Under the pieces are notes generated by a model, which was not told where the DNA came from, searched no databases, and saw only the letters and a list, made by a program, of their open reading frames with translations. The position numbers were made by a program, and so were the translations under genes. A stretch of 64,000 nucleotides of DNA from Aquimarina rhabdastrellae (GTDB lineage Bacteria > Bacteroidota > Bacteroidia > Flavobacteriales > Flavobacteriaceae): positions 868,001 to 932,000 of the forward strand of contig CANDNT010000001.1 of the NCBI GenBank assembly GCA_947387485.1, given 5' to 3'. Below, one piece after another: positions 1 to 17,995 of this stretch; position 1 is the first letter of the stretch, and the number at the start of each line of letters is the position of its first letter.

Positions 1-3000
1 AAAGCTTCTTCTTCTACAAAAGTAAAGCTGAGATCAAACTGGGAAGCCCCTCTATCCAATTCATAAGATTCTATTACAACTCCTTCCAAATTATCTCTGT
101 ATGCTGATATCGTCTCAAGTTGAGATTGATTTTGCAAAACTACCATCACATCAAATAATACTGAACGTGAGGTGTCCCGCTTTAAACCTAGCTTCCCTAC
201 AAGATCATCAAAAGGATACAATTGATGCTCATAAGCTTCTAAGAGTGTTTGTTTTTGTTGTTGTAAAAGATCGGCAAAACTGAATCCTTCAGAGATCCCG
301 GTACGAATCGCTAATGTATTTAAATAAAGTCCTATCTGATCCTCCAAATCCGGATGCTCCCTTCCTGCAACGGGAGTGCCTAAGATAATATCTCTCTGAC
401 CCGTATACCTGTACAATAGTGCATTAATCCCCGACATCAAGGTCATAAACAAAGTAACTCCTTGATCTTGTGAAAAAGCTTTTATTTTTTGGGTAAAATC
501 CTCTGAAAAACGATGCGTCAGTGTCTTTCCATTATATGTCTGTATTAAGGGACGTTTCTTAAAACTTGGCAGCTCTAAAACCGGTAAGTCTCCCGAAAGG
601 TTTTTTAACCAATAAGCCTCAGAAGTCTTATACGCTTCTCCTTTCAATTCCGATCGCAACCAAACTGCATAATCCTTGTACTGTAACTCCAAAGGATCTG
701 TCAGTACTTCTCCACCTTTCAACAAATTGTTATAGCCTCTTACTACCTCGGACATGATCAGCTCCATAGACCAACCATCCCCTATAATGTGGTGCAGTAC
801 GAAAGAAAATAAATGAGTGTCCTCACTTAGTTTCAATAGGCTCGCCTTCAATAAAGGTCCTTTGCTTAAATCGAATACCTGCAAATGTTCATGTCTTAAA
901 AAGGTATCTGTCACTTCCTTGCTTTTCCCTTCAAAATCCTGAAAAGCTATATCAAAATCCAACGTTTGAAAGTCCTTTATGTATTGTTCTATTTCTCCCT
1001 CTCCATTTGCCTTGAAGCAAGTCCTTAAAATCTCATGCCTATTCACCAATATCTTAATAGCTTCCTTAAACTTGTCTATATCCAGGCTACCATGGAGTTT
1101 TATGACACCTGGCATATTGTAGGCTGAGCTCCCTTCGTCCAATTGGCTCAATACCCACAATCGGTGCTGTGATGGCGTTAGCGGATAGGATTGGGATTCT
1201 GGTGCTTTTGGAATTAACTTATAACCATCCTTTTTTAGGTTACTGCTTATTTGAGAAATGGTTGGACTCTGGAAAAAATCTTTATAACTAATACTCCCGT
1301 TAAGTTTCTTATAAATGTGGTTTATGATCTGACCTATCATCAGACTATGACCTCCCAATTCAAAAAAGTTATCTTCTATTCCAACCTTATCAACTCCTAA
1401 AACTTCTTGCCATATCCATACCAGTTCTTCTTCTGTTTTATTTCGGGGGGCAACATAATCTGAAGTCCCTTCATAATCCATGGATAAACCTTCTAGCAAA
1501 TTCCTGTCTATCTTTCCATTTGGAGTTAAAGGCATACTTTCTATAGCCTGAAAATGGTTGGGAACCATATAACCTGGTAACTTGATCTTTAAGAAAGCTT
1601 TTAAATCCTCAATAACTATAGGTGAATCTTCAAGGTAATAAGTTACCAAAGCCTCTCCTCCTTGGTTTTTCTTTAATACAGTTGTCACTTGTGAAACTTT
1701 ATCTGAAAAGGATAAAATTGTGTTATCTATCTCACCCAACTCGATACGATAACCTCGGAGTTTTACCTGGTTATCTTTTCTTCCCAAAAATTCTATCTTC
1801 CCATTAGGCAGCCATTTTACGAGATCCCCCGTTTTATACACCAATTCTCCGTCTTTATAAGGGTTTGCTATAAATTTCTCCCTTGTCAGTTCTGGACGGT
1901 TCAAATAACCTCTTGATACCCCTACTCCTGAAATATGTAATTCCCCTATAACACCTATAGGTTGCAGCTGTAAATCTTTTGATAAAACATAAACAGAGGT
2001 ATTAGCCAAAGGAATACCTATGGGCAACAAGTCTGTTTCATAATCTTTTGTTTCAAACTTATGTATTAAAGAAGTGACCGTTGTTTCTGTCGGACCATAT
2101 TCATTATAAAAATCAGCTACATCTGCCATCTTCCTTGCTAGTCCTATATCACAAAACTCCCCTCCAGAAATTATCCTCTTAAGAGTAGTACAGCGACCCA
2201 GACCTTCTAACTTCTTTAAATAATTAGGGGTTGCATGTAAATGTGTAACTCCATATTGATTCAGTATTCTTGGTAGTTGATCTGTATTAAGTATTTGGCT
2301 TTCTGATGCTACTACTAAACCTGCTCCATTTAATAAGCCTAAAAATATTTGCTCTATTGATGCATCAAAAGCAAAATTAGAGAACAACAATATCACCTCA
2401 TTCTGAACAATCTCAAAACGTCTTGATTGATCCTGAATCAAATTTATCACTGAAGCGTGCTCTACCATAACTCCTTTGGGGTATCCTGTAGATCCAGAGG
2501 TGTAAATTATGTAAGCCAAATTCGAGGAGGTATTGATCTTATCTAAATTTTCCTTAGAAAATCTTTCTCGAACTTTTTCAAATCGTGTTAACTCATCACT
2601 ATCAACTATTACTTTACTTTTGCTATCATTTTCGATATATTTTATTCTTTCTTCGGGATATGTAGTATCAATCGGTAGGTAAGCTGCTCCCGATTTTAAA
2701 ACTGCCAGAACAGAAATTATCAAATACTCATCTCTGTCAAATTTAATTCCAATAAGATCCTCAGGTACAACCTTATATATTTCCCTGAGATAGTATGCGA
2801 GCTGATTAGATTGCTCATTTAACTCCTTATAGGTAATGCTATTTTTTTCAAATTGGACTGCTATAGCCTCTGGTGTTTTTTTAACCTGTTCCTCAAATAA
2901 ATCTATAATGGTTTTTTCAGAAGTAAACACTTCTTCGGTATCATTAAAGGCATATAGCAATTGATTCTCTTCCTCTTTGGTCAAAAGTGCCAATGTACCT

Positions 3001-4517
3001 ATTGAAACTTCATCTTCTCCATCAACAATACTATGAGTTATTCTTTCAAAGTGTGTAATCAAACGCTCAATAAAACTGGATTCGTAGATATCGGTATTAT
3101 ACCTTACTACAAGATCATAACTCTTTTCTGTTTTTGAAAAAGTAAATTCAAGGTCAAATTTACTTACCGTTTCCTGATCTAAATTATAGATGCGAGTTTG
3201 CAGATTTCCAATTTGGTGTTCTTTCTCAGGTAGTTTTTCCTGTTCTTCAAGACTAACTAATACATCAAATAAAGGATTACGGCTTGTATCTCTTTGACTT
3301 ACAACTTTCTCTACAATTTCATCATAAGGAAATGATTGATACTTATAAGCATCTAATGTAGTTTTTCTAAGTTTTGATAATACATTTTTAAAATTATCTT
3401 CTTTCCCTAATTGAGTTCTTAACGGCAATGTATTAACAAAAAGGCCTATTTGGTTTAGTAAATCAGGATGTTCTCTACCTGCAATCGGTGTTCCAATCAC
3501 CAAATCATTTTGACCTGAATATCTATGGAGTAAGATTTTTATAATGGACAGAAAGCCCATGAAAAGTGTACTTTTCTGAGATGTACATATTCCACTCAGT
3601 TTATTAACATCATCTTCATTTAGAGTTTTTTTAATAAGTGCACCAGAATAAGTCTTGATCGTTGGTCTGGTTTTATTAGTGGGTAATTCCAAAATCGGGA
3701 TCTCTCCTTCAAACTGCTGAATCCAATAGGTTTCCTGTTCTTTTCTTTTATCTTTTTCAAGAAGACTTTTCTGCCAATATGTATAATCTTTATATTGAAT
3801 AGCTAAAGGAGTCAGTGGATTAGGTAAGTCATTAAGATATGCTTCATAAATACTAAAAACTTCTTTGGTTATCACCTCCATTGACCAACCATCGCTAATT
3901 ATGTGGTGCATAACACAAACAAAAATATGTTTATCTTCAGCTATCTTTAGTATTGTTACCTTTATCAAAGGGCCTTTTGACAGGTCAAATGCATACTCTT
4001 TTTCTATCTGAATAATTGCCTCAATTACATTCTTATCTTCAAGAGTAACATCAGTATACTCCAATTTAAAATTGGTTTCTGTATGAGGTAATATTATCTG
4101 TTTTACTTCACCATTACTATCTTCTTTAAATATAGTTCTTAATGCTTCGTGACGTTCTATAAGCGCTATAAAAACCTTTTCGAGAATATCAATATTCAGT
4201 TTCCCATTCAGTTCTAATACACTGGGCATATTATATGAAGATATTCCCTTTTCTAATTGATCTAGAAACCATAAACGTCCTTGAGCTGATGATACCGTAT
4301 ACATATCATTTTTTGGAGCCTTTGGTATGGTAACTACCTCTTCTGATGGAACTGGCTTATAAGACGTAATAAATTTTATCAGATTTTCTTTATTCTGTTT
4401 TATTTCTTCTAATAAACCCTTTTTCATTGCACCTTTTGGCGCCTGAATATCTAACCTTCCATCTATGACATCAATGTATATATCTAAACTGTTAAGTTTT
4501 CCTAATAGTTCTTTCAT
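1..4517 (-). CDS. Nonribosomal peptide synthetase, TubC-C-A-T-C..., C-terminus beyond window
   Basis: This multimodular peptide synthetase starts at the ATG at 4517 and stays open to the window edge, giving about 1505 residues here. Residues 1-51 match a TubC-type N-terminal docking domain, with a GRL...APKGA core followed by a helix of the LLEEIKQNK type. A condensation domain follows, with HHIISDGWS near residue 203. The adenylation domain has YTSGSTG near 670, and a carrier domain has GGHSLM near 1054. A second condensation domain has HHIIGDGWS near 1240 and runs off the window. Read by eye, the ten A-domain specificity residues are D-A-E-H-I-G-E-V-T-K, which I cannot assign to an amino acid. 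The gene lies 147 bases downstream of the other synthetase on the same strand, so it should continue that assembly line. Synthetase identity is certain; the substrate is not. Confidence 0.95.
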   Translation of the reverse strand, partial: MKELLGKLNSLDIYIDVIDGRLDIQAPKGAMKKGLLEEIKQNKENLIKFITSYKPVPSEEVVTIPKAPKNDMYTVSSAQGRLWFLDQLEKGISSYNMPSVLELNGKLNIDILEKVFIALIERHEALRTIFKEDSNGEVKQIILPHTETNFKLEYTDVTLEDKNVIEAIIQIEKEYAFDLSKGPLIKVTILKIAEDKHIFVCVMHHIISDGWSMEVITKEVFSIYEAYLNDLPNPLTPLAIQYKDYTYWQKSLLEKDKRKEQETYWIQQFEGEIPILELPTNKTRPTIKTYSGALIKKTLNEDDVNKLSGICTSQKSTLFMGFLSIIKILLHRYSGQNDLVIGTPIAGREHPDLLNQIGLFVNTLPLRTQLGKEDNFKNVLSKLRKTTLDAYKYQSFPYDEIVEKVVSQRDTSRNPLFDVLVSLEEQEKLPEKEHQIGNLQTRIYNLDQETVSKFDLEFTFSKTEKSYDLVVRYNTDIYESSFIERLITHFERITHSIVDGEDEVSIGTLALLTKEEENQLLYAFNDTEEVFTSEKTIIDLFEEQVKKTPEAIAVQFEKNSITYKELNEQSNQLAYYLREIYKVVPEDLIGIKFDRDEYLIISVLAVLKSGAAYLPIDTTYPEERIKYIENDSKSKVIVDSDELTRFEKVRERFSKENLDKINTSSNLAYIIYTSGSTGYPKGVMVEHASVINLIQDQSRRFEIVQNEVILLFSNFAFDASIEQIFLGLLNGAGLVVASESQILNTDQLPRILNQYGVTHLHATPNYLKKLEGLGRCTTLKRIISGGEFCDIGLARKMADVADFYNEYGPTETTVTSLIHKFETKDYETDLLPIGIPLANTSVYVLSKDLQLQPIGVIGELHISGVGVSRGYLNRPELTREKFIANPYKDGELVYKTGDLVKWLPNGKIEFLGRKDNQVKLRGYRIELGEIDNTILSFSDKVSQVTTVLKKNQGGEALVTYYLEDSPIVIEDLKAFLKIKLPGYMVPNHFQAIESMPLTPNGKIDRNLLEGLSMDYEGTSDYVAPRNKTEEELVWIWQEVLGVDKVGIEDNFFELGGHSLMIGQIINHIYKKLNGSISYKDFFQSPTISQISSNLKKDGYKLIPKAPESQSYPLTPSQHRLWVLSQLDEGSSAYNMPGVIKLHGSLDIDKFKEAIKILVNRHEILRTCFKANGEGEIEQYIKDFQTLDFDIAFQDFEGKSKEVTDTFLRHEHLQVFDLSKGPLLKASLLKLSEDTHLFSFVLHHIIGDGWSMELIMSEVVRGYNNLLKGGEVLTDPLELQYKDYAVWLRSELKGEAYKTSEAYWLKNLSGDLPVLELPSFKKRPLIQTYNGKTLTHRFSEDFTQKIKAFSQDQGVTLFMTLMSGINALLYRYTGQRDIILGTPVAGREHPDLEDQIGLYLNTLAIRTGISEGFSFADLLQQQKQTLLEAYEHQLYPFDDLVGKLGLKRDTSRSVLFDVMVVLQNQSQLETISAYRDNLEGVVIESYELDRGASQFDLSFTFVEEEA

Positions 4518-4664
4518 AAGGTAATGTGAAATAGTAGTGAAAATACTTTCTCTAAAATGCTACTTACCGTAACATTATGATTATTTATAGGTTAATGATA
4601 ATGTCCCGATTTGCAGGAAAAAATTAAATAATGTAATGTGTAATTATTTCTGGAAGTAAAACGG
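4518..4664 (-). other. Intercistronic gap between NRPS genes with a hairpin
   Basis: The 147-base gap holds a near-perfect inverted repeat: 4572-4583 pairs with 4593-4604 at 11 of 12 positions around a 9-base loop. No T-tract follows it on the minus strand, so it does not look like a terminator. It may influence mRNA stability or the ratio of the two synthetases; that is inference. Confidence 0.4.
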
Positions 4665-7600
4665 CTAAATAGAGAACTTTTCCATCTCTATTTCACCTTC
4701 TTCTTCAGTCTTTTTGCTTCTATTTTTAAGAATTAGAAGATTGTTTTCGATAAGTGTTGCTTGTTCTTCCAAAATTGAACTTCTCAGCAGGTCATTTATC
4801 GATATTTTAATTTCAAATTGTTTATGGATCATACCTGCTATTTTAGTGGCGCTTAGACTATTCCCTCCTATCTCAAAAAAATCTTCCAGTACACCTATTT
4901 TGTTCACATCTAATACCGCTTTCCAAATGGACACTAATTTCTCTTCTATCTCATTTCTAGGCGAAATATACTCTACAGTAGAAGCTTGCGGTTCATGAAT
5001 GTAGTTTAATAACTTTTTCCTATCAACTTTTCCGTTGGATGTCAAAGGAAATTCGGGAATTGGTATAATGGTGTTTGGAACCATATATGAAGGCAGCTTC
5101 TTTTTAAGCTCTGTCACAACCATTCGTGCATCTATACCTTCTTCATTCGGTATCACATAAGCTACCAAAAAAGCTTCTTCTTCATTTTTCCTTTTGGCAA
5201 CCACAACAACTTCTTTAATCTCTTGTATTTGGTTTATGTGAGCCTCGATTTCTCCTAATTCAATCCTGTATCCTCTTATCTTTACCTGATAATCGTTACG
5301 ACCCAAAAACTCAATTTCGCCATCAGCATTCCATTTTCCTATATCTCCTGTTTTATAAATTACCTCATTTTCTAAAAAAGGGCTTTCAATAAAACGATCT
5401 TTTGTTAGCTGTTCATTTCCATAATATCCTTTGGCCAACCCTTTACCTCCTATATATAGGGATCCTACAACTCCTATAGGGACTTTGTTCAAAAATTCAT
5501 CTACTATATAAAATGAAGTATTGTTTATGGGTGATCCAATATTTGAAGCATCTGTGGGATGTTCTATTCTTTTCACACTTGACCATATTGTCGTTTCGGT
5601 AGGTCCATACATATTCCAAACTTCAGCAGAAGTATTGATTAATTTTTCTGCCAAAGATTTACTTAACAGATCACCTCCACAAAGAACTTTCAGTTCTTTA
5701 CTTCCTTTCCACCCTGCGTGAAACAACAATTGATAAAATCCAGGTGTTGCTTGCATCACTGTAGGTTTAACTCCTTCCAGTTTTTGAAGAATCGTATTAG
5801 GGTCTGATAATGTTTTCTGATCTACTATGAAAACTGAACCTCCTGTAATCAGGGGAGCAAAAAACTCCAATATGGATATATCAAAAGAATATGTTGTTAC
5901 AGAAAATAGTACATCTTTTTCATTCAAACCTGGTCTTTGTTGCATACTAAGCAGAAAATTCAACAGAGACTGGTGTCCTATTTCTACTCCTTTTGGCGTT
6001 CCTGTTGATCCCGAGGTATATATAATATAAGCGGAATCTTTTGGAGATATATTAGGTATATCTTTTGGTTTTGTTTTCGAAGCTTGTTTCAGAAGTTTTT
6101 CTAAAGAAAGTATCGTTGCATTAGTTTCTAGATCAAACTCTTCTTTTTGATCCCCAATAATCAATTCTACTTTACTATCATTTATGATATGTCGAAGCCT
6201 TTCTACCGGAAATGTAGGATCCAATGGGATATATGATCTTCCTACCTTTAGGATACCTAATAAAACAGGAAGTACAAATGCAGATCTATCCAATACTACT
6301 GCAATTGGTGATTTATCCTCCTGATGATTAACCATCAAACAGGAAGTTATTTTATCGGATAATTCATTAAGTTCTTTGTAAGTAAACTGGTTAACTCCAT
6401 CGTAAACGGCGAGTTTCTCAGGTTTTTTATCTACCTGGCCTTTGAATACATCTAAAAAGGTTAGAGACTCTTCTCCCGTGACTAATGTATTATTAAACCT
6501 ATCCAGCTCTAATTCCTCGGTAGTTGTCAGGTAATCAATACTATTAATTTGTTTTTCAGGATTGGTTAAAACTTCTTTAAGAATGTTTTCCAAATGGATA
6601 TACATTCTATCCATCAGTGTTTTATTATAAATATCTGTATTGTACTCTATTGTTAAGGTCAAAGCATCTGATTCTACAAATTTGAAACTGATATCAAACT
6701 TTGAAGTAGTGTTAATGTATTTGTATGGACTAAAATCCAGTCCAGTCAACTCTTTTTGATTGTTTATTGTATGTAATTGTTTCTGGCTTTGTAAAATGAT
6801 CAATACATCGAAGAGTACGGAGCGGCTTACATCTCTTTGCAATTTTAATTTACCGATCAATTCATCCAAAGGATAATGTTGATGATCGTATGCTCCAATT
6901 AGCTCATTTTTTTGATATTGCAAGAATTCCCAAAAGCTATTTTGTGGATCTATCTTTGTACGTATAGGCAAGGTATTCAAATATGCTCCAATCTGGTGTT
7001 CCAGATCGGGATGCTCTCGTCCCGCAACAGGAGTTCCTGTTATCAAATCTTTTTGTCCGCTATGTTTATGTAATAAAATATGAACTCCAGCCATAAGAAC
7101 CATAAACAACGTTACATCGTTGTTTTGTGTAAACTTTATTAGCTCTGATTTTAGCGTATCCGGAAAATGATATTCTAGTTCCTTTCCGTTAAATATCTGA
7201 TTTACTGGACGTGGTTTGGCACTGGGCAAATTAAGAACCGGTAATTCACCTTTGAAGCACTCCAACCAGTATTTTTCAGATTCTTTATACTTCTTGCTCT
7301 TCAGTTCATTGTTTAACCATACCGAATAATCCTTGTACTGAACTTTTATCTCAGGAAGTTCTGGTTTTTGGTTCTGAACAAGTGCATTATAACTTTTTAT
7401 AATTTCAGATATTAATACTTCTATAGACCATCCATCACCGATGATATGATGTAGCGATAGTAAAAATATATATTCATTTTCTCCAGAAGTGATTATAGAA
7501 GAGGATAACAATGGTGCTTGTTCCAGATCAAACAGAATCTCATTTTTCTGTTTACAAACAGCTTCTATGGCTTCTTCTACATTGTCTTGATCGCTTACAT

Positions 7601-10600
7601 CCTCTTTGTCTATCTGAAAATCAACATCTTCAAAAGGAGTTACATATTGCATAATCTCTCCTTTCTCATCCATTTTGAAACAAGTCCTTAAGATTTCGTG
7701 GCGTTTCAATAACGTATTGAATACTTCTTCAAAAGCTGTAACATCTAAATTTCCTTTGATAGTAACTGCAGCAGGCATATTATATGCCAGAGCGCCTCCT
7801 TCCAACTGGCTTAATATCCAAATTCTTTTTTGTGTTGGCGTTAGAGGATATGAAGTAGCAATTGGAGCTGTTGATATTGGTACATAATCACTTTCCAGCA
7901 AATTATGACTCAATGTTTTTATGTTTGGATACTTAAAAAAGTCCTGAAATGATATTCGTTTTCCAAGCTTTTTGTATATCGCATTAATCACTTGAACCAT
8001 GAGCAGACTATGCCCTCCTTTTTCAAAGAAGTTATCGGTTATCCCTATTTTTTGAACTCCCAATATTTCTTCCCAGATTTCTGCAAGAATAGATTGGATC
8101 TTATTTTCCGGAGCAATATATTCTTTTGTATCTGATAACCCCAACTCAATAGGATTCGGAAGTGATTTTTTATCCACCTTTCCGTTACTTGTTAATGGGA
8201 AAGCTGATAGGTTTATAAAATATAAAGGAATCATATAATGAGGTAGATATCTACTCATATACTCTTTCAATTCTGAAATTTCCTCTGGGTTTTCTCCTAT
8301 AAAATAAGCACATATCCTTTTCTCTGTTTCTTTAGTATGTACTATTACAATTGCATCCTGAATATTAGGATGCTCTACTAAAACCCTTTCTATCTCCTGT
8401 AATTCTATTCGATAACCTCTTATTTTTATTTGATCATCGTTTCTACCCACATAAATAATACTTCCATCATCTTTCCAATAAGAAATATCCCCCGTTTTAT
8501 ATAAACGTTGATTATCTTTAAACGGACTATGGATAAATCTTTTTTCGGTTTCTTCAGGAAGATTTATATACCCTATTCCCAAATTCTCTCCTCCTATGTA
8601 AAGTTCTCCTTTTATACCTATAGGCACCGGTAGTAATTGGGAATCGAGAATGTATATATCTGTGTTAGAAATAGGATACCCGATCGGAGCATAAGGTGTA
8701 ATATTTCCTGCTTCTTCGGACATCGTATAATAAGTAACCACATGTGTTTCTGATGGTCCGTAATGGTTATGAAGTTTAATCTTTGGATACTTTGCTAAGA
8801 AATCATGCAATGCCTGATTAATTGTCAACTGTTCTCCAGAGGATATTATATGTTTTATTTTATGATTTTCTAAGTGATTTAATCCATTATTAGTAAAAAA
8901 GTTACTTAACGCAGAAAAAGGAAATGAAAGAACTTCAATTTTATGATCAACGATATAAGATGCTAACCCAGAAAAATCTAAGCGGAGTTCCTCTTCCAAA
9001 ACAAACAATTGTCCTCCACTACATAATACAAACCAGCTATCTTGCAGAGACATATCAAAACTAAACGAGGCATACTGTAAAAATCTTAAGCCAGTCTCAA
9101 TTCCTGATTTTTCAATATCCCACTGAATTAGATTACTTAGCATTCGATGAGTTTGTATAACTCCTTTAGGGTTTCCTGTTGACCCTGAAGTATATACTAC
9201 AAACGACTTATCTTCTAGTTTGTTTGTTTTTTCGGGATTGGAAACAGCATATTTTGTTAGTTGTAAATCATCTAAATATACAAAGTGATTAAACACTATT
9301 TCATCTTCTTGCAATAGATCATTTTTAGTCAATACCAAATCCATTGATGCATCCTCAAGGATAAAATTAATGCGATTCAGCGGGTATTGATGTTCAACAG
9401 GTACGTAACACGCTCCCGATTTCATAACACCTATCATCGTAATTATACTATCTACAGATCTTTCTAACATCACTCCTATATTAGATTCTTTGGTAACCTG
9501 TTTTTTTTCTCTCAGATAGTGTGCAAGCTGATTACTCTTATCATTTATTTCATTATATGTATATGCTACACCTCTAAAAACTACAGCAATTGCATCTGGA
9601 GTTTTCTCAACTTGTTCTTCAAATAAACTTATTACTGTTTGTTCTTTCTTTGCTGTACTTGTTGAATTGAAACTCGTTATTAACTGTTCCGCTTCTTTTG
9701 TATTAAGGTAATTTACTTCTTCAATTGGTGTATCTGGTTCATCAATACATCGTATAAGCACGTTTTCCAAATGAGAGAACATTCTGTTTATCAATCTGGA
9801 ATCATAAATATCTGTATTGAACTCTATAGTTAGTTCTAATCCTTCGTTTTCGACAAAAATAAAACTTACATCAAACTGAGAAGTTCTTCTTTCAAATGGG
9901 TAATTACTTATCTCAATCCCTTTAATATGATTTGTATTGTTAATGTTGGTTAGTTGCTCCTGATTTTGTAATACAACTAATACATCAAACAACAAGGAAC
10001 GACTGGAATCCGGTTTGGTATTGAGTTGACCTGCCAGATGATCAAATGGGAAACCTTGGTGTTCATATGCGCCTAACAATATTTCTTTCTGGCAGGCAAC
10101 CATATCAGAAAAACTATCTTTTCTATTGATTTTAGTACGTAATGCCAATGTATTAAGGTATAGGCCTATTTGGTTCTCCAGATCAACATGTTTTCTTCCT
10201 GCAATAGGTGTACCCAAAATAATATCCTTTTGCCCGGTATATCGATACAAAAGAGTATTAATTCCTGCCATTAAAGTCATAAATAATGTAGCATCATTAT
10301 TTATAGAAAAAGCTTTTAACTTATTTAAAAAAGATTCAGAAAAGTTTTGCGTAATTCTTTTTCCATTATATGTCTTTATTAATGGTCTTGTTGTAAAGCT
10401 TGGTAATTCAAGTACAGGTAATTCTCCTTCGAGTTGTTTTAACCAATAATCTTTTTGTTTTACAAATTCTTCTTTTTGTAATTCTTTACTTAACCATACA
10501 GCATAATCCTTATATTGAATCGATAATCCCGGTAGTTTAAGAGTTTCTCTATTGATTAAACTATTATATATTTCAATAATTTCTGATATTAATAACCTGG

Positions 10601-13439
10601 TTGACCAACCATCACCAATAATATGGTGTATTGATAAGAGAAACACAAACACCTTATCTTCGGTTTTTATCAAAGAAGCCCGAAACAATAGTTCTTTCTC
10701 TAAATCAAAAGATATACTATTGAAACGTTCTAAGTAATTATCAACTAATTGTTTCTTATCACTTTCAAAGCTAAAATCTTTACTTTCTATTCTAAAATTT
10801 ACATTCTCAAAATCTTTAACATGCTGTCTTACTTCGCCATTCTCATTCGTTTTAAAATTTGTTCTCAAAACCTCATGGCGTTCAATTACTTTATTAAAAG
10901 ATTCCTCAAATAATACAAAATCAATTTCACCATTAACCTTTACCGCAGTTGGCATATTATAGGCTAATGATCCTTCTTCTAATTGACTTAATATCCATAA
11001 TCTGTTTTGAGAAGGTGTTAATGGATATGATATGGATTCTGATGCCTGTGGTATAGCAACATATTCTTTTTTACCCATTTTTTTGACATTCCCTCTAATC
11101 GTTGGTTCTTCAAAAAACTCTTTATATGCTACCCCTCTGTTTAAAGTTTTATGCATCTTTTCTATCACCTGAGAAACCATGAGACTGTGTCCTCCCAAAT
11201 GGAAAAAGTTATCCTCTACTCCTACCTTTTCTACACTCAATACCTCCTGCCAAATGTTAACCAACACTTTTTCTGTTTCATTTTTTGGTGCTATATATTC
11301 CGTAGTAATCCGGCGATTTAATGTAAGCTTCTCTAAAGCTTTCCTATCAATTTTACCATTAGGAGTTAATGGCATTTTTTCTAAAGCTATTAAATAACCT
11401 GGAATCATATAACCTGGCAATCTGATATCTAAGAAGCTTTTAATAGACTCTGTATCTATAGGTGTTTTTGTAACATAGTACGCCACCAAAAATTCATTCT
11501 TTTCCGAACTATGTACTACGGTTATAGCTTGTACAATTTCTTCAGAAAATGAAAGAATACTCTTTTCTATCTCCCCTAGTTCTATGCGATATCCACGTAG
11601 CTTTACCTGGTGATCATTTCTACCTAAAAATTCGATATTTCCATCAGGAGTCCACTTTGCCATATCTCCTGTATCATACATCTTCTTATTTTCCTGATAC
11701 GGATTCGTTATAAATTTCTTCGAAGTTAGTTCAGAACGATTAAGATAACCTTTGGCAATACCATCACCCGAAATATATAATTCCCCTGGAATTCCGATGG
11801 GTAACAACTGCATACATTCATCCAATATATACACTTGCGTGTTAGAAACAGGAATCCCCACAGGAATGGATGTAACGTATTCTTTTTTAGGATCTAACTT
11901 ATAAACCGTACTGTAAGTAGTGTCTTCTGAAGGTCCGTATAAATTACGTGTTTCTATACCAAGGCTATTCAACGTATTGGCTATATCCACAGGAAAAGGT
12001 TCTCCTGCTAAATTGATAATACTTACATTGGATAAAGAGTAACCATTTTCTATAATATTCCGGATACTGGAGGGCACCGTATTAATGAGTACTTTTTTAT
12101 GGTGTTGTAAAGCATCTCCTATTTCTAATGCGTTATCCAGTATCCGTATGCTCTTCCCTATTGATAACGGGAAGAACATTTCGAAAACAGAAAGATCAAA
12201 ACAATACGAAGTTGATGCAAATACAACGTCAAATTTTTGCTCATCAAATTCGTTTTGAGCCCAATTCAATAGTGCTATAGCATTTTGGTGGGTTATCATA
12301 ACCCCTTTAGGAACACCTGTGGTACCTGATGTATAAATTATGTAGGCAACATCAGTCGAGTCTATCTCAATATCTAAATTACTTTTAGAATACCGTTCCT
12401 GATTTGTCTCAAACCGATTGAATTGTTCTTCATCAATGATATATGTACATTTACTATCATTTTCTATAAACCGAATACGTTCTTCAGGATAATCAATGTC
12501 AATTGGCACATAGGTAGCATTCAATTTGAGTGCAGCCAGTATTGCTACTATAATCTTTTCGTTTCTTGGTAATTTAATCCCTAAATGATCTCCTCTCTTA
12601 ACATTTTGTTTTTCAACTATAAAATTTGCTAATTGATTTACTTCTTGATTAAGTTCTTCATAGGTATACTGTACTTTCTCATATTGTACAGCTATTTCTT
12701 GAGGTGTTTTTTTTACTTGTTTTTCAAGAACACTTATTAGTGTATCATTTTTATCATAAGGATAGTTATTATCATTAAAACTTGTTAAAAACATGTTTTT
12801 TTCTTCCTCTGATATTATTGGTAGTATATCAATATTCTTATTTAAAGAACTATCCAAGTTGATCAACCACTCTTTAAAATTAGCTAAAAAGTGTTTAGCC
12901 AAACTTTCTGAAATAAAAGATTTTGAGTAATGAAGAGTAATATTTAAATTAACTTTTGTTTTTTCAATACCTATTGAAAAGTCAAATAATTCTTTATTGT
13001 ATGTTAACTGATTATAAATGAAACCAATCGAACTATATTTTTCAAACTCATTATTAAAAAAATAATTGCTGTCGATATTATTGTAGACTTCTAATGTTTC
13101 TTTTTTTATTTCATTTAAATACTCCTTTAATCCTTTTCCTTGAATCGTTTCTACATTATATAGTATTGGAGTTTCTTTTCCTTTTACTTCTTCTTTAGAA
13201 TATATTATATCTGAGTGTAATTTATATCGCTGTAAAAGAGAACTAAACAAGGTTAATAGTATTGTTTGTTCTGCCATTTTATTATTACCACTCAAACTTT
13301 CAAAATACCAAAGCTCATCACTAAAAATAGATATAGATTGAGAAAAAATCTCACTTTGATCTTTTCTATTTATCATTAATCTATTTTTAAGTTTACTTTT
13401 CCAATAATTGGTAACAATCTTATTTTTTATATTACTCAT
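4665..13439 (-). CDS. Nonribosomal peptide synthetase, three modules, predicted loading module plus two extensions
   Basis: A 2924-residue synthetase. Residues 1 to about 210 resemble only the C-terminal half of a condensation domain and lack HHxxxDG, which suits a loading module. Module 1: A domain (YTSGTTG near 366) and carrier (GGHSLM near 750). Module 2: condensation (HHIIGDG near 937), A (YTSGSTG near 1416), carrier (GGHSLL near 1808). Module 3: condensation (HHIIGDG near 1996), A (YTSGSTG near 2474), carrier (GGNSLS near 2858). Specificity residues read as D-L-F-N-N-A-L-T-Y-K (the known Ala pattern), D-M-Q-S-I-S-H-V-V-K (close to the Pro pattern DVQxIAHVVK but altered) and D-I-L-Q-L-G-M-I-W-K (a known Gly pattern). 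No epimerase or thioesterase is present. The acidic tail ending EIEMEKFSI could dock onto the TubC domain of the next protein. Substrate calls are inference from remembered codes. Confidence 0.97.
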   Translation of the reverse strand: MSNIKNKIVTNYWKSKLKNRLMINRKDQSEIFSQSISIFSDELWYFESLSGNNKMAEQTILLTLFSSLLQRYKLHSDIIYSKEEVKGKETPILYNVETIQGKGLKEYLNEIKKETLEVYNNIDSNYFFNNEFEKYSSIGFIYNQLTYNKELFDFSIGIEKTKVNLNITLHYSKSFISESLAKHFLANFKEWLINLDSSLNKNIDILPIISEEEKNMFLTSFNDNNYPYDKNDTLISVLEKQVKKTPQEIAVQYEKVQYTYEELNQEVNQLANFIVEKQNVKRGDHLGIKLPRNEKIIVAILAALKLNATYVPIDIDYPEERIRFIENDSKCTYIIDEEQFNRFETNQERYSKSNLDIEIDSTDVAYIIYTSGTTGVPKGVMITHQNAIALLNWAQNEFDEQKFDVVFASTSYCFDLSVFEMFFPLSIGKSIRILDNALEIGDALQHHKKVLINTVPSSIRNIIENGYSLSNVSIINLAGEPFPVDIANTLNSLGIETRNLYGPSEDTTYSTVYKLDPKKEYVTSIPVGIPVSNTQVYILDECMQLLPIGIPGELYISGDGIAKGYLNRSELTSKKFITNPYQENKKMYDTGDMAKWTPDGNIEFLGRNDHQVKLRGYRIELGEIEKSILSFSEEIVQAITVVHSSEKNEFLVAYYVTKTPIDTESIKSFLDIRLPGYMIPGYLIALEKMPLTPNGKIDRKALEKLTLNRRITTEYIAPKNETEKVLVNIWQEVLSVEKVGVEDNFFHLGGHSLMVSQVIEKMHKTLNRGVAYKEFFEEPTIRGNVKKMGKKEYVAIPQASESISYPLTPSQNRLWILSQLEEGSLAYNMPTAVKVNGEIDFVLFEESFNKVIERHEVLRTNFKTNENGEVRQHVKDFENVNFRIESKDFSFESDKKQLVDNYLERFNSISFDLEKELLFRASLIKTEDKVFVFLLSIHHIIGDGWSTRLLISEIIEIYNSLINRETLKLPGLSIQYKDYAVWLSKELQKEEFVKQKDYWLKQLEGELPVLELPSFTTRPLIKTYNGKRITQNFSESFLNKLKAFSINNDATLFMTLMAGINTLLYRYTGQKDIILGTPIAGRKHVDLENQIGLYLNTLALRTKINRKDSFSDMVACQKEILLGAYEHQGFPFDHLAGQLNTKPDSSRSLLFDVLVVLQNQEQLTNINNTNHIKGIEISNYPFERRTSQFDVSFIFVENEGLELTIEFNTDIYDSRLINRMFSHLENVLIRCIDEPDTPIEEVNYLNTKEAEQLITSFNSTSTAKKEQTVISLFEEQVEKTPDAIAVVFRGVAYTYNEINDKSNQLAHYLREKKQVTKESNIGVMLERSVDSIITMIGVMKSGACYVPVEHQYPLNRINFILEDASMDLVLTKNDLLQEDEIVFNHFVYLDDLQLTKYAVSNPEKTNKLEDKSFVVYTSGSTGNPKGVIQTHRMLSNLIQWDIEKSGIETGLRFLQYASFSFDMSLQDSWFVLCSGGQLFVLEEELRLDFSGLASYIVDHKIEVLSFPFSALSNFFTNNGLNHLENHKIKHIISSGEQLTINQALHDFLAKYPKIKLHNHYGPSETHVVTYYTMSEEAGNITPYAPIGYPISNTDIYILDSQLLPVPIGIKGELYIGGENLGIGYINLPEETEKRFIHSPFKDNQRLYKTGDISYWKDDGSIIYVGRNDDQIKIRGYRIELQEIERVLVEHPNIQDAIVIVHTKETEKRICAYFIGENPEEISELKEYMSRYLPHYMIPLYFINLSAFPLTSNGKVDKKSLPNPIELGLSDTKEYIAPENKIQSILAEIWEEILGVQKIGITDNFFEKGGHSLLMVQVINAIYKKLGKRISFQDFFKYPNIKTLSHNLLESDYVPISTAPIATSYPLTPTQKRIWILSQLEGGALAYNMPAAVTIKGNLDVTAFEEVFNTLLKRHEILRTCFKMDEKGEIMQYVTPFEDVDFQIDKEDVSDQDNVEEAIEAVCKQKNEILFDLEQAPLLSSSIITSGENEYIFLLSLHHIIGDGWSIEVLISEIIKSYNALVQNQKPELPEIKVQYKDYSVWLNNELKSKKYKESEKYWLECFKGELPVLNLPSAKPRPVNQIFNGKELEYHFPDTLKSELIKFTQNNDVTLFMVLMAGVHILLHKHSGQKDLITGTPVAGREHPDLEHQIGAYLNTLPIRTKIDPQNSFWEFLQYQKNELIGAYDHQHYPLDELIGKLKLQRDVSRSVLFDVLIILQSQKQLHTINNQKELTGLDFSPYKYINTTSKFDISFKFVESDALTLTIEYNTDIYNKTLMDRMYIHLENILKEVLTNPEKQINSIDYLTTTEELELDRFNNTLVTGEESLTFLDVFKGQVDKKPEKLAVYDGVNQFTYKELNELSDKITSCLMVNHQEDKSPIAVVLDRSAFVLPVLLGILKVGRSYIPLDPTFPVERLRHIINDSKVELIIGDQKEEFDLETNATILSLEKLLKQASKTKPKDIPNISPKDSAYIIYTSGSTGTPKGVEIGHQSLLNFLLSMQQRPGLNEKDVLFSVTTYSFDISILEFFAPLITGGSVFIVDQKTLSDPNTILQKLEGVKPTVMQATPGFYQLLFHAGWKGSKELKVLCGGDLLSKSLAEKLINTSAEVWNMYGPTETTIWSSVKRIEHPTDASNIGSPINNTSFYIVDEFLNKVPIGVVGSLYIGGKGLAKGYYGNEQLTKDRFIESPFLENEVIYKTGDIGKWNADGEIEFLGRNDYQVKIRGYRIELGEIEAHINQIQEIKEVVVVAKRKNEEEAFLVAYVIPNEEGIDARMVVTELKKKLPSYMVPNTIIPIPEFPLTSNGKVDRKKLLNYIHEPQASTVEYISPRNEIEEKLVSIWKAVLDVNKIGVLEDFFEIGGNSLSATKIAGMIHKQFEIKISINDLLRSSILEEQATLIENNLLILKNRSKKTEEEGEIEMEKFSI

Positions 13440-13976
13440 TATAATGATCGATTATTATATAGCTCTCAGAGAATTGAGATACATTGTTCGGAAAGTTCTA
13501 TCCAATGAAATTACATTTAATTAAAATCACTGACTATGAATCTTAATTAAAAAAAGTATCCATATTATATCTATCAGTAAATACAATATGTACTATCATT
13601 CTTATTACTTAAAAGTATACGTAATTTTAAAATGTAATATGAATATTATATATTATTTCGTTAGTGCCTACAGTAAGTGGATTTAACAACAATTAAAATA
13701 CATTGAACAATTTAAAAGTGAAATAATATTAAAGAGTAGTAATTTATAATTTTAAGTAGTTTTTTGATAAGGCTTCGCCTCCTAGACTCACATAGTCTAT
13801 TTTTGTAAGATTTGGATATAAACCTCAATAAAAATAAGATTTACTCTTCTTCTTACAGCTAATATACAAATAAGATCATTATTTACATGTAGTTTAAAGT
13901 TAAAAAAATGTTAACTAAACCGTGGTGATTAATGCTTATTTTTGATTTTAATATGAAAATCTTAAAAACATAGAAA
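13440..13976. other. Intergenic region upstream of the NRPS operon
   Basis: These 537 bases lie between the NRPS start and the stop of the yifB-like gene, both on the minus strand. I see no convincing TAnnTTTG box on the minus strand and no gene. A short inverted repeat at 13783-13799 (TAGACT/AGTCTA, 5-base loop) is followed by TTTTTG on the plus strand, but it is only 6 bp. The NRPS promoter presumably lies here. Confidence 0.4.
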
Positions 13977-15515
13977 CTATCCCAACCATCCTTCTCTATC
14001 TAAACTTCTATATTGAATGGCTTCTGCTATATGATGTTCTATGATATTTTTTTCTTCATCTAAATCAGCAATAGTTCTAGCTACTTTAAGTATGCGATCA
14101 TATGCTCTAGCTGACAAATTTAAACGCTCCATTGCTGTTTTAAGTAATACCTTTGATTTTTCATCTAATTGACAAAAAGTGCGTATTTGGCGTACTCCCA
14201 TTTGAGCATTATAATGAATATTAGGTAACTCTTTAAAACGTTCTGTTTGAAAAATTCTAGCTTTTGTAACTCTTTCTCTAATAGCTACACTAGATTCTCC
14301 TTTACGTTCTTCACTCAGTTTTTCAAAAGGAACCGGTGTTACTTCTATATGTATATCAATTCTATCTAAAAGAGGTCCTGATATTTTACTCAAATATCGT
14401 TGCATTTCTGCTGGTGAAGATGTCACAGGAGACTCTGGATCATTAAAATATCCTCCCGGACTGGGATTCATACTAGCTACTAACATAAAACTCGAAGGAT
14501 ATGTAACTGTAAATCGTGCTCTAGAAATAGTTACTTCTCTATCTTCTAATGGTTGTCGCATTACTTCTAGTACACTTCGTTTGAATTCTGGTAATTCATC
14601 TAGAAATAAAACTCCATTATGAGATAAAGATATTTCTCCTGGTTGAGGATAAGCTCCTCCTCCTACTAAAGCTACATCTGATATCGTATGGTGAGGTGAT
14701 CTAAAAGGACGTTGTGTCATCAATCCTAAATGCTCTTTAATTCTTCCTGCAACACTATGTATTTTTGTTGTTTCTAATGCTTCATGTAAAGACATAGGAG
14801 GCAAAATAGATGGTAATCGTTTTGCTAGCATAGTTTTTCCTGCTCCTGGTGGTCCTATTAAAATAATATTATGTCCGCCTGCCGCGGCTATTTCCATACA
14901 GCGTTTAATACTTTCTTGTCCTTTTACATCTGCAAAATCATATTCTGGAAAATTTAAATTTTCATAAAACGTTTTTCTAGTATCTACTTCGGTTCTTATA
15001 AGGGTATCTGTTTCTTCAAAAAAATTGATTACTTCTTTTATATTATCTATCCCATACACTTCAAGGCCATCTACAATAGCTGCTTCTTTTGCATTTTGTT
15101 TAGGTAATATAAATCCTTTAAAACCTTCTTCTCTAGCTTTAATTGCAATGGGTAAGGCTCCTTTTATTGGTTGTAAACTACCATCTAAGGACAATTCTCC
15201 CATAATTAAATACTCCATAACACGTTCAGCTTTAATCTGTGAAGAAGCTGCCAAAATACCTATAGCTAATGTTAAATCATATGCACTACCCTCTTTACGT
15301 AAATCAGCAGGTGCCATATTAATTGTTATTTTTTTTCCCGGTATTTTATATCCATTATTTTGTAATGCAGCCGCAATACGATAATTACTCTCTTTTATTG
15401 CATTATCCGGTAATCCTACAAGATGATATCCTATTCCTTTATTTACATTAACTTCAACAATTATAGTTGTTGCTTCTACTCCAAACACAGCACTGCCGTA
15501 TACTTTTACCAGCAT
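13977..15515 (-). CDS. yifB: YifB/ComM-family Mg-chelatase-like AAA+ ATPase
   Basis: A 512-residue protein of the usual length for YifB/ComM. The N-terminal third is the ChlI/Lon-protease-like fold (opening MLVKVYGSAVFGVEA, with GLPDNAIKES). It is followed by an AAA+ module with Walker A GPPGAGKT near residue 219, Walker B-type LFLDELPEF, and the GGGAYPQPGEISLSHNGVL segment typical of Mg-chelatase-like ATPases. The C-terminal part (SARAYDRILKVARTIADL) is the family lid domain. In naturally transformable bacteria ComM is a helicase that promotes branch migration during DNA uptake; in others the role is less clear. It has no evident operon partners. Family assignment is secure; a role in competence here is inference. 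Confidence 0.95.
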   Translation of the reverse strand: MLVKVYGSAVFGVEATTIIVEVNVNKGIGYHLVGLPDNAIKESNYRIAAALQNNGYKIPGKKITINMAPADLRKEGSAYDLTLAIGILAASSQIKAERVMEYLIMGELSLDGSLQPIKGALPIAIKAREEGFKGFILPKQNAKEAAIVDGLEVYGIDNIKEVINFFEETDTLIRTEVDTRKTFYENLNFPEYDFADVKGQESIKRCMEIAAAGGHNIILIGPPGAGKTMLAKRLPSILPPMSLHEALETTKIHSVAGRIKEHLGLMTQRPFRSPHHTISDVALVGGGAYPQPGEISLSHNGVLFLDELPEFKRSVLEVMRQPLEDREVTISRARFTVTYPSSFMLVASMNPSPGGYFNDPESPVTSSPAEMQRYLSKISGPLLDRIDIHIEVTPVPFEKLSEERKGESSVAIRERVTKARIFQTERFKELPNIHYNAQMGVRQIRTFCQLDEKSKVLLKTAMERLNLSARAYDRILKVARTIADLDEEKNIIEHHIAEAIQYRSLDREGWLG

Positions 15516-15823
15516 ATTTTTCTTTTAAATATACGTAAAATGAACGAAGTCATCTTGTTATAATGGGTCAATCTCAAAAACTATGAGTAAATTATCTTTA
15601 TAAAGATCGAATAAAGAATAATCATTTTTGAATATTGATTTGTTTATTCTAAAGCATATCAATCATCCAATTTTCACAGTTTGATCTTTCTGTTTTAAGT
15701 TATTCAATTAATTGCAAAAACTATAACAAGTCTTCTTAGCCTATTACAAACTCTTATCTTCATAAAAAAAACCTGATATCTTATCGACATCAGGTTTCCT
15801 TGAATTAAAAACACATATCAAAA
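15516..15823. other. Intergenic region between yifB-like gene and aspartokinase
   Basis: About 308 AT-rich bases. The only structure I can support is the aspartokinase terminator at its left-hand end. The promoter of the yifB-like gene should lie near 15516-15600, but I see no clear box. Confidence 0.5.
15764..15797 (-). terminator. Terminator of aspartokinase gene
   Basis: A 12-bp stem (15769-15780 with 15786-15797, one G-U pair) has a 5-base loop. On the minus strand it is followed by a run of eight T residues, just past the aspartokinase stop. Confidence 0.85.
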
Positions 15824-17155
15824 TCAGGTCACCAATTCTTCTTTCTCATAGCAAAAAAGTTTTTGGTTTAAAAACCTCAAGGTATTGACTTTATCTTCTG
15901 TTTCGACTAGGATCGAAATATTATTATTACTTCCTCCATAAGAAATCATACGTACTGGTATATAGTTAAGTACTTCAAATAACTTATGTGCTTCTTGATC
16001 TGCAATTACTCCTTCTCCCACTACACAAATGATACTATGATTTCTTTCTACAGTAACTTCGGCATAGTTTTCAATTTCTCTAACAATCTCTGGTAAATGC
16101 CTATCGTTATCAATAGTCAAAGATATGGCAATCTCTGATGTTGTAATCATATCTATAGCTGTTTGATAATTGTCAAAGACTTCAAATATTCTTCTTAAAT
16201 ATCCATGCGCCATCAACATCCTATTAGATTTGATTTTTATTGCTGTAATATTATCTTTCGCAGAAATTGCTTTCAAACCTTTTCTTCCATATTGATTAGA
16301 GATTATAGTTCCTTCTGCGACAGGGTTAAATGTATTTTTTAGCAGTACTGGTATTCCTTTTTGAGTCACAGGAGACACCGTTTGAGGATGCAAAATTTTT
16401 GCTCCAAAATATGCTAATTCAGCTGCTTCATCATATGTTAGGTGTGAAATCCTACGAGTATTCTCTACATATCTCGGGTCATTATTATGAAATCCATCAA
16501 TATCTGTCCATATTTGAACTTCTTCTGCTTCTATAGCTGCTCCTATTATCGTAGCCGTATAATCGCTTCCTCCTCTTTTTAAATGACCAATCTTTCCTTT
16601 TATATCTCTACATACAAATCCTTGAGTCACATAAATATCTACTCTTTCCTGATTTAATATCTCATCTAATAATGTGCTCACTTTTTCAATATTAGGAGCT
16701 TCTACGCTATCAATATGCATAAAGTTTTTAGCATCAAGCAGTCTATTCGATATACTGTTTGTAGTAAGCAATGCAGAAAAAATATACGTCAATAATGTTT
16801 CTCCGTATGTTACCAACTTAGAATATATTTCTTCTGTATCTTCATTTGTTGTAATTACATACATAGCTGCAATACATTCTTTTATATACTGTATATGGTT
16901 TTCTTGTTGAGTCCTATCTTCAAATAAAGTCTTTATAACTTCTATATGTTTGGATTCAAGCGTATTTAATATATTTTTTATACCTTTTTTATCATTAGAA
17001 GCTGTTTTTTCTGTTAACTTAACCAATAAATCAGTTACCCCAGACATTGCTGATAATACGACTACCTTTTGTTGTCCATCATTAACAATCTCTTTTACCT
17101 TAAGTAAATTTTCTGGTGATCCTACAGATGTACCTCCAAACTTTAAAACTTTCAT
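15824..17155 (-). CDS. lysC: Aspartate kinase, monofunctional
   Basis: A 443-residue aspartate kinase, which phosphorylates L-aspartate in the first step toward lysine (diaminopimelate), threonine, methionine and isoleucine. The N-terminus carries the kinase motif KFGGTSVGSPENL. The middle has the signatures KRGGSDYTATIIGAA and WTDIDGFHNNDPR. From about residue 295 to the end lie tandem ACT-type regulatory segments, expected to bind the feedback inhibitor. The length fits a stand-alone kinase; no homoserine dehydrogenase domain is fused. A divergently transcribed gene begins 122 bases away and encodes another ACT-like protein. The start is the ATG at 17155, directly before the conserved motif. 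Confidence 0.95.
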   Translation of the reverse strand: MKVLKFGGTSVGSPENLLKVKEIVNDGQQKVVVLSAMSGVTDLLVKLTEKTASNDKKGIKNILNTLESKHIEVIKTLFEDRTQQENHIQYIKECIAAMYVITTNEDTEEIYSKLVTYGETLLTYIFSALLTTNSISNRLLDAKNFMHIDSVEAPNIEKVSTLLDEILNQERVDIYVTQGFVCRDIKGKIGHLKRGGSDYTATIIGAAIEAEEVQIWTDIDGFHNNDPRYVENTRRISHLTYDEAAELAYFGAKILHPQTVSPVTQKGIPVLLKNTFNPVAEGTIISNQYGRKGLKAISAKDNITAIKIKSNRMLMAHGYLRRIFEVFDNYQTAIDMITTSEIAISLTIDNDRHLPEIVREIENYAEVTVERNHSIICVVGEGVIADQEAHKLFEVLNYIPVRMISYGGSNNNISILVETEDKVNTLRFLNQKLFCYEKEELVT

Positions 17156-17245
17156 CTTCTTTATATGAATTATATTATCTCATTCATTACTGGTGCATAG
17201 TTAGTTATTTTAAAACTTAGGATAAATATTTTAGTATTTTTTGTA

Positions 17246-17253
17246 TACATTTG
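17246..17253 (+). promoter_or_regulatory. Candidate -7 box for the ACT-like protein gene
   Basis: TACATTTG fits the Bacteroidota -7 consensus TAnnTTTG and lies 25 bases before the start codon. No clear TTG is found at the usual -33 distance, so the call is weak. Confidence 0.35.
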
Positions 17254-17277
17254 TACATAATGTTAAATATATAACAA

Positions 17278-17931
17278 ATGAAGACGATTACGGATTGTGT
17301 TAATTCTATTATCAAACATCATCCTTTTTTAGAAGAAGCACTCTCAAAAAATATCATCAATTATAGAGCTTTGGCAGATGATTTGCTTCCTCAAGTTGAA
17401 GAAGAGATGCGTAAACCTGTAAAAGCAGGTTCTATAGTAATGGCTCTACGCAGGTACTATCCACAACGTAATCACGCCACGTTACAAAACTCTAATTTGC
17501 GAAATCTGGGCGATATTGTTGTTCGTTCTGGAATTACAGAATACACCTTTTTAAATTCAAAAACAATACTTAATAGTCAGTCTAATTTACTTGAAGCTGT
17601 AAAAGATATTACAGGTGCTTATTTTACTTATTCTAGTAATTTTCAAGAGAGTAATATTTTGGTATCTAATTCACTTAAAGAAATTGTAGAACAACATTTT
17701 AAAAATGAAACTCGTATTTCTGTAATGAGTGATCTTTCTTCTATTTCTTTAGCCTTACCAGAGGATAATTCAAAAACAGTAGGTTTATATTTTTATCTAT
17801 TTAAATTACTTGCTTATCAAGGGATTCCAGTTTTTGAAGTTATTTCAACTTCAAATTATTTTACATTATTCCTTGAAAAAGAATATGTAAATGATGCTTT
17901 TTTATTGATGAACGAAATCAAAAATCGTTAG
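17278..17931 (+). CDS. Conserved hypothetical protein with C-terminal ACT-like domain
   Basis: A 217-residue soluble protein with no signal peptide or membrane segment. I do not recognise it as a named family. The N-terminal half (IIKHHPFLEEAL, then a helix containing KPVKAGSIVMALRRY) looks helical and could be a small DNA- or protein-binding domain. Residues of about 135-217 have the pattern of an ACT domain: a beta strand ISVMSDLSSISLALP, then a helix, then GIPVFEVISTSNYFTLFLE. It is divergent from the aspartokinase gene, whose regulatory region is also ACT-based, so a regulatory role in amino-acid metabolism is plausible. That role is inference from fold resemblance and neighbourhood. Confidence 0.75.
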   Translation: MKTITDCVNSIIKHHPFLEEALSKNIINYRALADDLLPQVEEEMRKPVKAGSIVMALRRYYPQRNHATLQNSNLRNLGDIVVRSGITEYTFLNSKTILNSQSNLLEAVKDITGAYFTYSSNFQESNILVSNSLKEIVEQHFKNETRISVMSDLSSISLALPEDNSKTVGLYFYLFKLLAYQGIPVFEVISTSNYFTLFLEKEYVNDAFLLMNEIKNR

Positions 17932-17963
17932 ATTTATTATACTACATAATTATAGTAGCTAAA

Positions 17964-17995
17964 AAAAGGGATTTCTTTTTATAGAAATCCCTTTT
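17964..17995. terminator. Bidirectional terminator
   Basis: A perfect 13-bp stem (17964-17976 with 17983-17995), flanked by A-rich and T-rich ends, sits between convergent genes ending at 17931 and 18021. Confidence 0.9.

Follow-up and report, generated by a model that had tools for sequence, protein, structure and literature searches.

A probable lipopeptide assembly line in Aquimarina with a putative acylating initiation subunit encoded at the far end of its operon

Results

Two NRPS genes at the edge of the window

The window analysed here is a stretch of 64,000 nucleotides from Aquimarina rhabdastrellae, corresponding to positions 868001-932000 of contig C1 in a 5.0-Mb genome (G000) that contains 42 Condensation matches in total. 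Its left end is occupied by two nonribosomal peptide synthetase (NRPS) genes on the minus strand. The first (window 4665-13439) is an open reading frame of 2924 aa with three adenylation (A), three carrier (T) and two complete condensation (C) domains, arranged as Ctr-A1-T1-C2-A2-T2-C3-A3-T3 by Pfam and domain calls, and the Pfam E-values of 6.5e-217 (AMP-binding) and 1e-245 (Condensation) rule out chance. Ctr (residues 1-225; 12765-13439) is the C-terminal lobe of a condensation domain without the N-lobe that bears HHxxxDG. It is followed by A1 (11352-12725; code DLFNNALTYK, Ala type), T1 (11082-11264), C2 (9687-11033; motif HHIIGDG), A2 (8178-9620; DMQSISHVVK, a Pro-type ring amino acid), T2 (7905-8087), C3 (6510-7856; again HHIIGDG), A3 (5028-6443; DILQLGMIWK, Gly) and T3 (4755-4937). 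The codes were derived by alignment at what we take to be the GrsA positions. DILQLGMIWK is given as a Gly code in PMC12283262, where a DMQ-type code is also listed for azetidine carboxylic acid, so that the substrate of A2 need not be proline; the code DLFNNALTYK was not found in the open-access literature searched.

The 5' part of the next gene (window 1-4517; open reading frame 3-4517) comprises a TubC_N-type N-terminal docking domain (4353-4517, Pfam), C4 (2964-4307), A4 (1512-2894; DAEHIGEVTK), T4 (1242-1424) and C5 (1-1193), which is cut by the window edge; the window part thus holds one complete C, one A and one T domain and part of a second C, and the full protein measures 4232 aa (C1:859819-872517). 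Altogether, three complete extension C domains and a fourth, cut one lie in the window. The first-pass annotation had described two genes with at least three extension C domains, an Ala code in module 1, a Gly code in module 3 and an unassigned fourth residue; the domain view was borne out, both codes proved exact upon alignment, and A4 remains without assignment. Elsewhere in the window (20263-21170, minus strand), a RES-domain gene lies beside an Xre/MbcA/ParS-type antitoxin gene, likely a toxin-antitoxin pair.

The line extends over ~82 kb

From window position 13439 the NRPS line runs leftwards to C1 ~799283, i.e. over ~82 kb, and continues for ~70 kb beyond the window (C1 coordinates hereafter; the line is on the minus strand). 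The gene with Ctr-A1, A2 and A3 (872665-881439) is followed by the 4232-aa gene, in which A4 is joined by A5 (DAFWLGGTFK), A6 (DILQLGMIWK) and A7 (DLFNNALTYK). The gene at 859815 to 852157 carries A8 (DVQSSSHVVK) and A9 (DILQLGMIWK), the latter with an embedded monooxygenase, and precedes a KS-AT-KR-T gene (847699-852105) and the A10 gene (844129-847494; DILQLGLIWK). A carbamoyltransferase, which may act on the hydroxyl group derived from the KR, and a lone C domain come next. Further along lie genes for A11 (DLTKIGHIGK) and A12 (DVWHVSYIDK; 833806-840342), for A13 (DLTKIGHIGK) with an E-type domain (HHLVVDG, FNYLG) and A14 (DLTKIGEVGK; 825629-833563), and for A15 (DIIQLGVIWK), A16 (DPLFIGAIIK) and A17 (DGFFLGVTFK; 815798-824872). 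A CmlA-type hydroxylase gene separates the latter from the A18 gene (809166-813800; DLTKIGEVGK), which also encodes a degenerate C domain (SHAITDM). Residue names for most of these codes are presumed assignments. DLTKIGEVGK is treated in the Asp/Asn section of PMC12283262.

Between the A18 gene and the last NRPS gene (799283-803752; C-A19-T-C, A19 with DILQLGMIWK) lie genes for an outer-membrane protein, a TauD protein and an ABC transporter. We considered the TauD protein as a halogenase, yet it keeps an HNE motif, which we read as the sign of a hydroxylase, the likelier assignment. No thioesterase was found in the window line, whose own end is thus not fixed. Beyond the line, genes for a histidine kinase and a LytTR response regulator (794225-796007; L009) lie beside the cluster and are possibly its regulators.

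A condensation C-lobe precedes the Ala module

A1-T1 sits at the N-terminus of its protein without a catalytic C domain, and the C-lobe before it is best read as a relic or an interface rather than a catalyst. Among 66 Aquimarina genomes, full-length Ctr, defined as listed matches running from model position 1 or 2 to 242-244, was found at 11 loci in ten genomes. In 11 of 12 clusters compared by gene layout (see below) Ctr is followed by an Ala-type A domain; the exception, A. pacifica, has a Val-type code (DAIWIGGTFK), which counts against the start model proposed below. A first scan of genome contigs with the whole gene as query returned no relative, and a search of the open-access literature for truncated condensation domains in initiation modules found nothing. 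NRPS genes of other bacteria, including Clostridium, Chengkuizengella and an Aminicenantes bin, contain weak Ctr-like matches (22-28% identity; L053-L058). At another locus (L046), a gene ending in a C domain (10001-16885) is followed by one that opens with a C-lobe remnant before an A domain (16955-20723), the same split of C and C-lobe, but inside a line.

The last NRPS gene opens with a starter-like C domain

The C-A19-T-C gene, hereafter the Cs gene (Cs-A(Gly)-T-C), is the last NRPS gene of the window operon. In the copies compared, its first C domain begins no more than 20 residues into the open frame, while the other eight C-first NRPS genes of the window line have 72-100 residues ahead of the C domain, counted from the preceding stop. 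Early starts are also seen in a few C-first proteins outside this line. Within the line, a TubC_N docking domain was present in two of the four C-first elongation proteins given to Pfam (859819 and 840707, not 809166 and 852157). In a structural look-up, the Cs domain matched the RzmA starter C domain at 106 bits (best match 120), and the control, extension domain C2 of the window, did so at 66 bits (best match 246). It counts against a starter role that the best structural match of Cs is bacitracin synthase, not the RzmA starter C. In a midpoint-rooted tree of 176 C domains, ten Cs domains formed one clade (0.987), whose sister (1.0) is the first C domain of a separate line at C1:673248-716344. 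Cs thus combines three marks of a starter C domain: N-terminal position, HHxxxDG (HHIITDG in G000, HHLITDG in G084) and grouping with another line-starting C domain. Its acyl-gate position, placed at +8 relative to the second His by taking RzmA H140 to be that residue, is T in six of seven sequences and A in one. In RzmA, smaller gate residues admit longer chains (PMC7804268), and an acyl chain of medium or greater length would be expected from the Cs sequences. The A domain of the Cs gene has a Gly-type code in 12/12 clusters, and the gene probably fits an acylating initiation subunit that would transfer an acyl group to Gly.

In a smaller tree, the second C-type domain of the Cs gene forms its own clade, placed beside the E domains, not within them, and beside the C domains found after such E domains (0.961); the E motif YNYLG was not found in it, and given this position it may have another role. 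Among plasmid records, the position of the starter C match was checked in three among the best 15 of 563: two lie within 15 bases of the gene start, and most of the third match precedes the annotated start. With its three genes (frames of 7179, 3705 and 3473 aa; L015-L017), the separate line at C1:673248-716344 is the genome's third large NRPS line and closes with a thioesterase.

Ctr and the Cs gene mostly occur together and in one order

At E 1e-100, the Cs gene was found at 11 loci in 10 of the 66 Aquimarina genomes. Nine genomes, i.e. nine of the ten carriers of each, have both Ctr and the Cs gene (one-sided Fisher p 2.7e-9, uncorrected for relatedness); at most 42 (Ctr) and 26 (Cs gene) candidates were scored per NRPS-rich genome, so misses are possible. 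Ctr occurs without the Cs gene in G069 only (assembly 55% complete) and the Cs gene without Ctr in G024 only (89% complete). The window genome has two copies of each. Among 397 Flavobacteriaceae, the window genome included, both were found in G000, G249, G271 and G429, and G096 has a Ctr fragment only, with four stops; with at most four and seven candidates scored per genome, absences in this sample are uncertain. All five further-examined genomes with Ctr loci have the Cs gene, two of which (A. litoralis, G066, and A. pacifica, G068) were already counted.

Gene layouts were compared across 12 clusters, drawn from Aquimarina, Tenacibaculum and two other genera, with gene labels given mostly by similarity to genes of the window genome or one relative. 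The set leaves out G010 (Aquimarina sp. RZ0), G067, G069 and G024, which are broken at contig ends or incomplete, G017 and G023, which are without Ctr, and the Tenacibaculum larymnensis and Flavobacterium loci, for which the sequence covered was only ~20 kb. In 11/12 clusters the Cs gene lies downstream of the Ctr gene on the same strand; likewise, it is the last NRPS gene in 11/12, and an ABC transporter gene precedes it in 11/12. Its last place, where the terminal module normally stands, counts against a role in initiation. In A. pacifica, however, the order is reversed: the Ctr gene comes downstream of the Cs gene, and a hydrolase gene is all that separates them. Besides, the last elongation gene before the Cs gene already ends in a thioesterase (G000b, G020) or a reductase-type domain (A. 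sediminis, G032); in G429 a thioesterase lies mid-cluster and the line end is ambiguous. The window genome has a second, shorter line (C4:96720-124766; L018, L019) that reads Ctr-A(Ala)...TE, ABC transporter, Cs-A(Gly)-T-C.

Upstream of the operon, a NusG-like gene (~175 aa) was found in 8/12 clusters and confirmed by Pfam in G020, G026, G032, G066 and, outside the 12, G010; its place directly before a giant operon suggests antitermination. We rejected it as a general feature: the gap upstream of the window gene, the part of the window genome that was examined for it, has no NusG-like open reading frame, and the open reading frame at that place in G000b is a DUF4199 gene.

Conserved ends and exchanged middles

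The 12 clusters share the same ends but have very different middles. For A. litoralis, the identity of modules A01-A07 to G026 reaches 87-97%, against 48-60% for the window genome; for six of the eight back modules (A09-A12, A14, A15) it is the window genome that is closer, at 80-88%, with G026 at 44-51%. A08 (40-42%) and A13 (47-50%) fit neither. For A16, the A domain of the Cs gene, the top match in the window line reaches 57%, in a comparison that did not include the G026 Cs gene; over its whole length, the A. litoralis Cs gene shares 90% identity with the G026 gene and 50% with that of the window genome. Given this split, the Cs gene travels with the front half though it lies behind the back half, in keeping with a role in initiation. 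The same pattern could have come from swapping only the middle of a G026-like cluster.

A monooxygenase embedded in Gly module 9

The monooxygenase within A9, module 9 by gene order, matches TIGR04020 at 471.9 bits (cut-off 244.45). Its host A domain is of the Gly type, and the module is internal in the window line, not terminal. Such a domain is found in six of the 12 clusters, each time inside a Gly-type A domain and internal, and is absent from the other six; a KS follows directly in 4/6 and after one more module in 2/6. In G067, which is not among the 12, the monooxygenase is followed by a hydroxylase gene and a C-A module. Judged by frame length, TIGR04020 is embedded in an NRPS frame in 10/66 Aquimarina genomes; in G010 the monooxygenase has a frame of only 561 aa on another contig. 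Eight of the ten monooxygenase-bearing genomes have full-length Ctr, and in seven of them both lie on one contig (uncorrected p 3e-7 and 5e-6).

Hydrolases beside the Cs gene

A gene of ~650 aa lies at the Cs gene in 10/12 clusters. A library search in two of them (G020, G066) gave an S33-type (proline iminopeptidase-like) match, and by profile the nearest solved relatives are Hip1/carboxylesterase A-type proteases. A simple hydropathy script placed three to four hydrophobic segments at the C-terminus in all eight complete sequences (those of G271 and G084 are cut by the stretch end and fall outside the eight) and found an N-terminal segment above its threshold in 6/10. GxSxG is kept in nine of ten; G271 has AASYG. 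The S33 hydrolase with its predicted C-terminal membrane helices is likely exported. Full-length S33 genes (>840 bits) occur in nine of the 66 Aquimarina genomes, all Cs-gene carriers, and in none of the 56 non-carriers; one other Aquimarina genome has a partial match of 191 bits. With the six Cs-bearing genomes outside this set, all of which have it, the gene is present in 15/16 carriers, and where visible it adjoins the Cs gene or is separated from it by a small gene or short gap. A comparison with plasmids gave 45 records, none covering 80% of the query.

A search of the window genome found no S33 gene. Past its Cs gene lie instead an S12-type protein (PF00144; SMAK, YAN) and, as second hydrolase, an alpha/beta hydrolase. 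The S12 protein has one N-terminal membrane segment only and is probably exported; it gave three structural matches at E 0.001, none of them named ClbP. A role of this protein as SurE-like trans-cyclase was considered and set aside as less likely, as the N-terminal membrane segment makes export probable.

Discussion

In our best reading, the product is acyl-Gly-Ala-(Pro-type)-Gly-X..., of ~19 residues and one ketide. The 2924-aa gene is probably the second subunit, and we consider it likely that the two window genes encode the second and third subunits of an NRPS-PKS lipopeptide line of ~82 kb that the Cs-A(Gly)-T-C protein initiates. The starter C domain of the latter would acylate Gly, and its C-terminal C domain would join acyl-Gly to the Ala on A1-T1. 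The chain would then be extended by Pro-type, Gly, X, Val, Gly, Ala, Pro-type and Gly, the last with the embedded monooxygenase, by one ketide (KS-AT-KR), and by Gly, Asp, Ser, D-Asp, Asn, Gly, X, Ile/Val and Asn, to end at a C-like domain. Domains, codes, co-occurrence and the gene order in 12 clusters are directly shown; we infer in what order the chain is built, its acylation, which residues it holds and how it is released, a possible loss of the acyl-Gly head to an exported hydrolase, and also that the Ctr and Cs proteins work together.

The first-pass annotation had taken the Ala module for the loading module. With a relic C-lobe before A1 and a separate, starter-like Cs gene that co-occurs with it, this module is probably not the starter, and the N-terminus Ala-(Pro-like)-Gly-X proposed there is probably wrong, the prediction now being acyl-Gly-Ala-(Pro-like)-Gly-X. 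If Ala were loaded by A1-T1 after all, the peptide would begin with a free Ala and the Cs gene would be the last module, its terminal C domain releasing the chain onto an amine. The physical gene order in 11/12 clusters agrees with this, and terminal C domains that release onto amines exist, as described for glidonin (PMC10587159). We nonetheless regard it as improbable: the Cs gene opens, right at the N-terminus, with a C domain of starter-like character, a thioesterase or reductase already ends three related lines before the Cs gene is reached, the A. pacifica Cs gene precedes the Ctr gene, and the C-lobe kept by the Ala module goes without an account. A further alternative concerns the middle of the line, where the embedded luciferase-like monooxygenase could cut the growing chain in two, giving a peptide amide from the front half and a separate piece from the back, or else leave an alpha-hydroxyglycine in place. 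The score against TIGR04020, the host code DILQLGMIWK and the recurrence of the domain in 6/12 clusters, internal each time, are in keeping with cleavage; four Gly domains with MOX share this code and MOX cleaves the Gly carbon backbone according to PMC12283262, and myxothiazol is released in this way (PMC9396620). That precedent, however, acts at the line end, whereas here a KS follows, other such domains are described as hydroxylases (PMC8739492), and 6/12 clusters lack the domain altogether; we hold cleavage to be rather unlikely.

Returning to the Cs protein as initiator, the hydrolase at its gene suggests, by analogy, that a prodrug head may be removed after export. The relevant model is ClbP, a peptidase of the inner membrane whose catalytic domain is periplasmic and whose C-terminus forms three helices (PMC9889268). 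More broadly, and only tentatively, marine Flavobacteriaceae may make lipopeptides with an invariant acyl-Gly-Ala head built from opposite operon ends and with swapped middles, the head masking the product until an exported, membrane-anchored peptidase, mostly of a non-ClbP fold, removes it; the species of the window would have swapped in an S12 enzyme. The chances come closer to even that the hydrolases take no part in product maturation and serve instead for resistance or scavenging, or on other substrates. That none of the three structural matches of the window S12 protein is named ClbP fits such a role, but the distribution of the S33 gene (9/10 Cs-bearing Aquimarina genomes, 0/56 others, 6/6 carriers outside) speaks against it. 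A search of the open-access literature for monooxygenase cleavage together with prodrugs found nothing.

As to novelty, PMC12677607 describes 113 NRPS and 29 hybrid cluster families in 76 Aquimarina strains, with the aquimarins as the only known one. The suggestion of the first-pass annotation that the metabolite may be new still holds as probable. The aquimarins, polyketide-peptide hybrids from the same genus (PMC12677607, PMC9323603), and the anabaenopeptin-type cluster of A. muelleri (PMC9323603) enter this comparison by their descriptions. No Aquimarina lipopeptide with starter condensation was found in the one open-access library searched, and on that limited basis the family is only tentatively taken to be undescribed and its product not known. 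Predictions such as the synAQU set are drawn from Aquimarina clusters (PMC12677607, PMC9323603), and if such clusters are read in physical order, the N-terminus would come out wrong and the acyl group would go unnoticed, a point of importance for synthesis from sequence in this genus. The present work hints at how a little-explored natural-product family could be found and activated, and the combination of a conserved head with interchangeable middles shows module exchange at work in nature, from which NRPS engineering may profit.

Among known systems, the Cs domain resembles the lipoinitiation domains of RzmA and HolA (PMC7804268) in being an N-terminal, starter-like C domain with HHxxxDG and a small gate residue, but differs from them in belonging to a separate protein that also ends in a C domain and whose gene occupies the distal end of the operon, and in being paired with a Gly-type code in 12/12 clusters. 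The monooxygenase module shares TIGR04020 inside a Gly A domain and DILQLGMIWK with myxothiazol-type modules (PMC9396620, PMC12283262), although the one in the window line is internal, mostly with a KS after it in the clusters, and not terminal. In the case of ClbP, it is the arrangement alone that is alike: close to the initiation gene lies the gene of a probably exported serine hydrolase, which in most relatives carries predicted membrane helices at its C-terminus. Its S33 fold in the relatives is not the S12 fold of ClbP, and the S12 protein of the window genome has only its single N-terminal membrane segment. Known N-acyl-D-Asn prodrug systems use a separate acylating initiation protein, and so, putatively, does the present line, yet with a Gly code instead of D-Asn and with no E domain seen in the initiation module. 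The acyl-peptide leader of saframycin represents a parallel case.
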